A stretch of 23,409 nt of DNA from Rhodococcus sp. IITR03 (GTDB lineage Bacteria; Actinomycetota; Actinomycetes; Mycobacteriales; Mycobacteriaceae), in contig LATQ01000001.1 of the NCBI GenBank assembly GCA_001017865.1, forward strand, positions 1,065,522-1,088,930. Direction: 5' to 3'. Numbering within the stretch: the first letter of the stretch is position 1; every line of letters begins with the position of its first letter. The notes under the pieces were generated by a model. The model was not told where the DNA came from and did not search any database. It was given only the letters and a program-made list of their open reading frames with translations. A program made the position numbers and the translations under genes. Below are positions 11,305 to 14,300 of the stretch, piece after piece.

Positions 11305-14300
11305 TCAGCCTCGCGCCATGTCCACGAACCGCGACAGGTGCAGCTGGTGCGCAACGGTGATGGTCGCGGTCGGGCCGTTACGGTGCTTGCCGACGATGAG
11401 GTCGGCCTCGCCACCACGCGGGTCGTCGCGCTCGAACGCGTCGGGGCGGTGCAGCAGGATGACCATGTCGGCGTCCTGCTCGAGGCTGTTGTGCACCGCG
11501 ATGCCGTCGGCGACGAAATTGTGTGTGCCGGGCACTGTTCCGTCGTAGAGTCCTGCTCGCCGAGACTCGTGACGGAGACGATCTCGTCCCAGAACACGTT
11601 GTTGGTGGCGACCATGTCGATGTCGGCCGTGTCGAGGACATCGGCAACCCGGGCGAGCCGCGAGCGTGCACCCTCGGTGTTCCGCGGGATGGCGGACGCG
11701 ACCGGCCCGATCGGGCGAGCTGTTCGACGGCGAGAAGTTCGCCGAGCTCGGCTTCGATCTCGGGGGTGACGGTGTCGGGGCTGTGCTTGACGAGCTTCGG
11801 TCCCAGTTGCGCCAGGACCCACTGCGCCGCGGTTCCGTGCTTGCCCACGTCGTGGAGGAAGACCGCCTGGTTCTCCGCTCCGGTGACCGTGAGGTCCCAG
11901 CCTCGCCGGCATCGGTGATCCGCGCGAACACGCCGATGCGCAGGAGCAGGCGCGCGAGGTCGTCGGCGAGACGACGATCCGCCGACCGGTAGCGGACGAC
12001 GGCGCGGGCAGCGCCTGCATCCCATGCGACCTCACCGCTGTCTTCCCAGATGTGGCAGACGAGTTCGGCGACCTGTTCCTTGGGGAGCGAGAACGCGCGG
12101 GTGGGGATGAGTCGGCCGGCCACGGCGGTGTCCGCGAGAGCGGCCACCTCGTCGTCGGATGCGGGTATCACGTCGAGGGGTGCGGGCACCGCACGCGGCA
12201 CTGCGACACGCTCACCGGCAACCAACTCGCCCAACGGCATCCAGCCGTCGATGGTGAGGAAGGGATGGTTCGCGGTGGCTTCGACACGACGCCCCGAGGC
12301 CAGCTCCAACCGGAAGACTTCCTTACGGCCGCTGGGGAAGACCTTCACCATCGGCCGGACGACCATCCGCATGCGTTCGTCGAGCGACCACACGAGGGGC
12401 TGTTCGCCCGACTCGAGCAGCTCGCCGAGCGTGACCTCGGCACCGGTGTCGGCGCGCATGATGCGCGTGGACGCCGGCAGGCAGCCCGACTCACGGAGGT
12501 CGGAGACCTGCGGCCGCTTGTCGGTGCGCTGCTCGGGACCACGGTTGAGCTGACACACCGCGACGACCGGAACCTCGAGTTCCTTCGCGAGAAGCTTGAG
12601 GCTACGCGAGAATTCGGAGACCTCCTGCTGACGCGACTCGACCTTCTTGCCGGACGACATGAGCTGCAGGTAGTCGATGACGATGAGACGGATGTCGTGT
12701 TTCTGCTTGAGCCGCCGCGCTTTTGCGCGGATCTCCATCATCGTGAGGTTCGGCGAGTCGTCGATGAACAACGGCGCCTCGCTGATCTCGCTCATGCGAC
12801 GGGCGAGACGCGTCCAGTCGTCGTCGGTCATGCGTCCGGATCGCATGTCGCCGAGCTTGATCTTCGCCTCCGCGGACAGCAGACGCATGACGATCTCGGT
12901 CTTGCCCATCTCGAGAGAGAAGATGACCGAGGCCATGCCGTGCTTGATGGAGCACGACCGCATGAAGTCCATGCTCAGCGTGGAATTGTGCGTGGGCACC
13001 ATCGCGCGACCCGCGAGGTACATGTGGTCGCCGTCGACCTCGACACACCGCACCGGGACCGAGGGAACCGGGCGGACGGCGACGATACGGCGCTCCCGCG
13101 ACGCTGCGGCACGGCATTCCTTGTGCCGCACGGCCTTACTGGGCAGGACGAAGACATCGTCGTCGGCGGAGAAGGAGATCTCGGTGCCGTCGAGCACCGG
13201 TGCGTAACCGAGGCCCGACAGGAGTTCGGCGACGCCCTGCGCCAGACGCTCGGACGAGCCGACGAACCGGATGGTGCCGTCGTCGTCGATCTCTCCACCG
13301 GCGTCGAGCAGGCCCGCGAGGAGTTCGCGACGCTGCGGTTCGGATGCCCGCTGGTACTCGGCAGGGATGTGTGCGCCGAGCGCGACGAGGGCGCTCGTGA
13401 AACCACCTTCGCCGTCGATACGCATGTGCAGTTCGGGATCGGACGACGGGCCGCCCAGCCACGCACCGAGCGTGAAGGGGGAGACGGGCAGCTCGGCTGC
13501 CGGGAACGACAGTGCCTCGGTGTTCGCGACGGTGTGCCCGGCGTCGGCGGAGGCGGCGAGTTCGCCCGTGGTGCGGATCGCGCCGTCGCCGGTGCGCCAC
13601 TGGTGCTGCTCGTCGGCGACGATCACGGTGCCGTCGGAGAACACGACGTCGAAGCACGGACGGCCGTGCATGACCTCGGTGGCGGCGAGGACGCGGGTGG
13701 GGCGGCCGTCGGCACCGAGGAGTTCGTCGCCCACACCGACCTCGCCCATCGTGGTCCAGCCGGTGGGGGTAGGCAGGGGAGTGTCGAGGGCGAGCGCCTT
13801 ACCCACACCGGGACGCGCGGCGACGATGATCATCTGGCCGGCGTGCAACCCGTTGGTGAGCTCGTCGAGTTCGGCGAAGCCGGTGGGCACGCCGAGGGAG
13901 ATACCGCCGCGGCTGGCGATGGAGTCGATCTCGTCCATCGTGGGCTGCAGGAGCTCTTCGAGCGGCACGAAGTCTTCGGTGGTGCGTCGTTCGGCGACCT
14001 CGAAGACCTCGGCCTGCGCGCGGTCGACGATCTCGGCGACGTCCTGGCCGTCGGCGCCGGCGTAGCCGTACTGGACGATGCGGGTGCCCGCCTCGACGAG
14101 ACGGCGCAGGACGGCCTTCTCGGCGACGATCTCGGCGTAGTGCGCGTTGGCCGCGGTGGGGACGGTCTGGGTGAGCGTGACGAGGTAGGCGCTCCGCCGA
14201 GACGCTTGAGTTCGCCGCGCCGGTCGAGTTCGGCCGACACGGTGACCGGGTCGGCGGGTTCGCCGCGGCTGTAGAGATCGAGGATCGCGTCGTACACGGC

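Follow-up and report, generated by a model that had tools for sequence, protein, structure and literature searches.

A class 3 intein in the DnaB P-loop of Rhodococcus, predicted to splice, with a constrained endonuclease-like domain that lacks its catalytic acids

The dnaB helicase gene in a 23,409-nucleotide stretch of DNA from Rhodococcus sp. IITR03 (the whole stretch analysed, hereafter the window) is divided by an intein that separates Lys from Ser within the Walker A motif. Judged by its sequence, the element is a new Rhodococcus member of the actinobacterial family of class 3 inteins at the DnaB P-loop, and its splicing competence is predicted. We consider it very probable that the intein is competent to splice, is sensitive to oxidants and zinc, no longer homes and has kept its endonuclease fold for the sake of splicing. 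No title in the literature searched points to this Rhodococcus P-loop intein, Tori and Perler (2011) may list it in their survey of class 3 inteins, and Rhodococcus is named in the figure legend of a phage-host intein tree (PMC5050341). The anatomy, conservation, selection pattern and distribution described below were observed directly in the sequences compared. The features of the gene and its inteins are as follows.

11305..14510, minus strand: dnaB, which hosts both inteins; N-terminal edge approximate, frame broken in the window and whole in the nearest genome compared (G001)
12985..13797, minus strand: DnaB intein 1, a class 3 intein of 271 aa that splits Walker A between Lys and Ser, from translation, phmmer and alignment
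13654..13656, minus strand: Cys48, homologous to the Cys48 of M. smegmatis DnaBi1 that pairs with the block F Cys in the redox disulfide, from alignment, with the role taken from PMC6195587
13603..13614, minus strand: block B DxxH (Asp62-His65), from translation and alignment
13597..13599, minus strand: Trp67 of the WCT triplet, from translation and alignment
13093..13533, minus strand: LAGLIDADG endonuclease-like domain, residues 89-235 (boundaries chosen), with Gly116/Gly167, acidic and under purifying selection
13045..13047, minus strand: Cys251 of the WCT triplet, the nucleophile in block F, from phmmer, translation and alignment
12985..12993, minus strand: Thr269-His270-Asn271, block G with the C-terminal Asn, followed by Ser+1, from translation and alignment
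11485..12483, minus strand: second DnaB intein (i2), Cys1 type, ending HN before Ser; frame broken by length differences relative to G001

Open translation of 12985-13797 on the minus strand yields 271 amino acids with zero stops between the flanks VAARPGVGK and STLSMDF, and the insertion point therefore falls within RPGVGK/STLS, the site characteristic of the DnaB P-loop family. Residues 1, 48, 62, 65, 67, 251, 269, 270 and 271 are A, C, D, H, W, C, T, H and N, and Cys228, Val252 and Tyr260 are further residues of interest. The intein displays the hallmarks of class 3: an Ala at position 1 where no Cys, Ser or Thr is found, the WCT triplet in blocks B, F and G (Trp67, Cys251, Thr269), and a C-terminal His270-Asn271 followed by the nucleophilic Ser+1. 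A preliminary description of this DNA, made from the letters alone, had proposed the same coordinates, residues, class 3 type and placement between the Lys and Ser of GVGK/S, all of which are borne out; its residue list had the WCT triplet right and missed the redox partner Cys48.

The best phmmer matches among PDB sequences are class 3 DnaB inteins (6rix, 3.7e-45; 6riy, 2e-44; 6bs8 and 6own, 9.7e-42), with which the block F Cys and the terminal THN align. Alignment to M. smegmatis DnaB-1 (DnaBi1), the check that the preliminary description had put forward, sets Trp67 in block B and Cys251 in block F, with Trp67, Cys251 and Thr269 opposite W67, C118 and T137. An AlphaFold model of the intein (mean pLDDT 86.5, pTM 0.85) matches the folds of 6rix and 6bs8 first, and next that of PI-SceI, an endonuclease-bearing intein. 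We aligned 94 distinct sequences, drawn from the best 80 of 409 relatives, 30 further genome loci and the window after removal of duplicates, a set that leans toward close relatives. In this alignment W67, C251, T269, H270, N271 and the DxxH motif are identical in 94/94, Trp67 having been included in one of the search patterns for relatives. Ala1 is present in 93 of them, and the remaining row, L097, starts only at position 7. Chance is excluded as the source of these features.

The intein of G001 differs from that of the window by one amino acid, the nearest named locus, from R. gordoniae, is 90 percent identical over the intein, and all 18 genus genomes searched contain the intein without an internal stop. 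Farther out, 181 of 301 family genomes give some match, with sites and kinds that differ among them, and the matches in 33 of 396 genomes of a phylum search are mixed class 3-like inteins at several sites.

Reasoning from relatives, we expect that the splicing chemistry likely follows the class 3 path. Cys251 would attack the peptide bond between Lys and Ala1 to form a branched thioester, Ser+1 would take the N-extein from this branched thioester, and cyclisation of Asn271 would release the intein and restore GVGKS. Before splicing, DnaB would be without a continuous Walker A motif, and because the intein splits this motif, we infer that the precursor would be unable to bind ATP. That splicing decides ATP binding had been suggested in the preliminary description; the split site is as claimed, and the loss of binding would follow from the split. 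PMC6195587 calls such a loss in a P-loop precursor only reasonable to assume.

The host gene holds DnaB N and DnaB_C domains, and in G001 it forms, with its intein, an uninterrupted frame of 1116 aa. The breaks in the window's dnaB frame all fall outside intein 1, and we count them against the best explanation given above; the window sequence was analysed as is, with these breaks left unmended. Over window positions 1-16082 (16.1 kb) identity to G001 is 99.6 percent, and there are 26 gap runs, of which 24 are single-base and zero lie within 12985-13797. Because these runs are mostly single-base and the window is the shorter sequence in 24/26, the interruptions of dnaB, i2 and the neighbouring genes are probably assembly errors. 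The breaks may instead reflect a real dnaB defect in the strain; we turned down a broken, non-functional dnaB, given that the gap pattern against so similar a genome points to assembly error. The second intein is polymorphic, being found in 12/18 genus genomes as against 18/18 for intein 1. Two further observations concern other frames in the window. Antisense to the intein and dnaB is a 740-aa open frame (12052-14274, plus strand), probably a by-product of high G+C, and at 20479-23242 on the minus strand an nSTAND1 NTPase is followed by WD40 repeats in a different frame, whose product may be a defence or signalling protein.

Cys-dependent control of P-loop inteins by oxidants and zinc is already published for M. 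smegmatis relatives. DnaBi1, itself a class 3 P-loop intein, is blocked reversibly by H2O2 through a C48-C118 disulfide (PMC6195587), its C118, V119 and Y128 bind zinc (PMC7360933), and reactive chlorine species inhibit splicing too (PMC8557812). The Rhodococcus intein has counterparts for these residues (C48, C251-V252 and Y260), and because all of them are present, a sensitivity to oxidants and thiol metals is likely by analogy: as in DnaBi1, oxidants would likely block splicing through a Cys48-Cys251 disulfide, and zinc-like thiol metals would likely do so as well. The preliminary description's idea of a response to oxidation or thiol-binding metals therefore stands as published fact for close relatives, and for the window protein as a likely property.

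Conservation of these residues is high. Those matching the zinc ligands C, V and Y are identical in all 94 distinct sequences, and Cys48, which was part of none of the search patterns, is present in 93 of the 94 distinct P-loop inteins and in every one of the 11 P-loop rows that the phylum search gave in readable form, of which one duplicates a member of the 94 (L135, a phylum P-loop row, is identical to L040); these counts exclude L140, L144 and L158, where position 48 is blank, and L139, which is unreadable. The sole exception is a Cellulomonas copy (L053, 6001-6969) with Thr in place of Cys48. The class 3-like rows of other families number 24, of which 13 are phylum rows, 10 are phage pieces and one is from G001; L166 ends before the Thr, and position 1 lies outside the match for 14. 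Cys occupies position 48 in nine of the 24, one of them the phage DnaB-like helicase L160.

This pattern could be read as a selected switch: cells would benefit from a pause in DnaB maturation when oxidants or metals stress them, and the intein would have been retained for that benefit. The near-invariance of Cys48, despite its description as non-conserved in PMC6195587, the universal zinc-ligand equivalents and the published inhibition of M. smegmatis splicing all favour such a switch, which we hold to be possible but somewhat unlikely. Structural need explains the conservation of Cys48 equally well. Specifically, each Cys48 substitution tested in DnaBi1 abolished splicing (PMC6195587), and Arg46-Pro47, immediately beside it, is identical in 94/94, so conservation of Cys48 alone is no proof of a sensing role. 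Moreover, fixation requires no benefit, given that an intein is presumably seldom lost precisely from an essential gene.

A related proposal, prompted by genes that lie beside dnaB in the window, is that the intein senses arsenite jointly with an adjoining arsenic cluster.

6640..10969, no single strand: ars-type neighbours, comprising two ArsR-family regulators, an SBF-family transporter, a low-molecular-weight-phosphatase-family protein and a glyoxalase-fold ORF
6640-6975, plus strand, and 10236-10667, minus strand: the ArsR-family regulators

The Pfam families of the neighbours other than the regulators are SBF, LMWPc and Glyoxalase, which we take to be ACR3, ArsC and ArsI by name. The nearest ars-type ORF ends about 0.4 kb or less from the dnaB stop, and two thiols that can form a disulfide in DnaBi1 might also bind As(III). 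However, the cluster adjoins dnaB in only 5/18 genus genomes (5/13 of those with 17-kb stretches), as against 18/18 for the intein. The thirteen remaining stretches comprise five short ones (5.0-9.4 kb) and eight of 17 kb without the ars set, one of which has a single ArsR-like match. The 80 named loci, with flanks of at most 6 kb, yield one ars cluster, in L004, a record already counted among the 18; in L053 and L079 there is an ArsR-like match alone (41 and 37 percent). In the literature searched, inteins, protein splicing and arsenite are mentioned together in one paper only, a genome paper. We consequently regard joint arsenite sensing as highly improbable, and the link to the arsenic cluster raised in the preliminary description was rejected on distribution, no conserved linkage of intein and ars genes being found across the 18 genus genomes. 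The intein is independent of the cluster, and because it occurs in every genus genome searched, it is probably older there.

Between the splicing blocks of the intein, residues 89-235 match LAGLIDADG_3 in Pfam barely above the cut-off and are modelled by AlphaFold with high confidence. Positions 116 and 167, which we take to be the LAGLIDADG catalytic acid positions, are both Gly, where an active homing endonuclease would have acids. The same Gly/Gly pair occurs in 19/19 distinct genus rows (window included) and in 17/17 full-length copies, the eighteenth genus copy, L127, being incomplete. Of the 94 sequences, 27 keep both acids, 54 have neither and 13 have one. Averaged over the 19 genus rows, the net charge of the domain is -11.5; the corresponding means are -0.1 for the 27 sequences that keep both acids, 0.1 for 17 Gordonia rows and -2.9 for the remaining 31. 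Because both catalytic acids are gone, the window intein most likely no longer homes, and its inheritance within the genus would be largely vertical: at 17 loci, intein distance follows the distance of the flanking exteins (Mantel r 0.68, p 0.0001). That the intein remains mobile and spreads by cleaving dnaB copies without it might be argued from the retained LAGLIDADG fold and from the sequences at the same site that keep both acids. We rejected active homing, which the missing acids, the acidic domain and the agreement with host-gene distances together make exceedingly unlikely.

Even though it is nuclease-dead, the domain is under purifying selection in the genus and in Gordonia. Our dN/dS values were obtained by the Nei-Gojobori method, which is rough in GC-rich DNA, and codon-position counts agree with them. 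In the genus remnant dN/dS is 0.10-0.55 over 8 non-overlapping pairs, the bootstrap upper bound is below 1 in 8/8, and substitutions at codon positions 1/2/3 number 112/73/276. The acid-less domain of Gordonia has a dN/dS of 0.00-0.09, with substitutions at the three positions of 55/17/329. Constraint is not universal, and the acid-less domain decays in some lineages: in three additional pairs without the acids dN/dS is 0.08, 0.31 and 0.92, the last from the Williamsia pair L043/L047.

The simplest reading of this constraint is a structural mutualism between the endonuclease and splicing (HEN-HINT) domains, in which the fold is kept since the splicing domain now probably depends on it. An archaeal precedent exists in the TFIIB inteins, which reportedly splice efficiently only with the HEN domain; the MjaTFIIB intein shares the retention of a degenerate HEN domain, although it sits in another host protein and dependence is reported there, whereas for the window intein it is drawn by analogy (PMC6801210). 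Counting against dependence, DnaBi1 has no endonuclease domain (PMC6195587), so a splicing domain of this type can do its work alone; the Williamsia pair, and the genus pairs in which the remnant is the less constrained part, weigh against the reading as well. Might the dead domain have been domesticated for another job, such as regulation by the excised intein? The Gordonia domain is below the splicing part in dN/dS in 8/8 pairs and below the 0.10-0.29 of six pairs with both acids, and intein length is 276 or 277 in 17/17 Gordonia loci. However, structural mutualism would give such constraint without a new job, the acidic domain in Rhodococcus speaks against DNA binding, and in 6/8 genus pairs the splicing part is under tighter constraint than the remnant. 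We therefore think domestication unlikely. A broader conjecture would have the domain domesticated in Rhodococcus, and more strongly in Gordonia, as a selected, working part that controls how fast the helicase matures or how its maturation responds to stress, the Cys48 redox brake being ancestral to the family and not a mycobacterial novelty; this we put forward as a doubtful, speculative possibility.

Structural dependence of splicing on the retained fold remains our preferred reading, and it is in this domain that the intein departs from the mycobacterial inteins DnaBi1 and DnaB1. Homology to DnaBi1 (6bs8, 6own; PMC6195587, PMC7360933) is clear, extending to the site, the class 3 residues, Cys48, the block F Cys-Val and the Tyr. 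DnaBi1, however, is a mini-intein of 139 residues, whereas the window intein retains some 147 residues of endonuclease-like domain that lack the catalytic acids, and a third Cys (228) sets it further apart. The best PDB match by sequence and fold, M. chimaera DnaB1 (6rix, 6riy; PMC7664689), is represented by deposited chains of 145-146 residues without such a domain. Phage and other class 3-like inteins (PMC5050341) have the W, C and T of the triplet in common with the window intein, but they occupy other host proteins, several at GK/x sites, and the phage inteins among the matches listed are about 30-40 percent identical to it. G001 also holds a second class 3-type intein (L003 292-3075; G001:C1:891319-892344) with Ala1, Cys at 48, Trp, block F Cys and THN, in which both LAGLIDADG acids are present. 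Pfam names only LAGLIDADG_3 and Hom_end on the L003 protein, and phage matches suggest that its host protein may be a phage terminase.

These results carry the published DnaBi1 redox model outside the mycobacteria, and they reveal that a Cys48 termed non-conserved (PMC6195587) is nearly invariant in P-loop DnaB inteins, in contrast to other class 3-like rows. The Cellulomonas copy with Thr48 is a natural test of that model, and sister species with and without the second intein offer a natural comparison. What most deserves to be followed is the dead yet constrained endonuclease domain, and its removal would tell whether inteins keep dead nucleases since splicing needs them.
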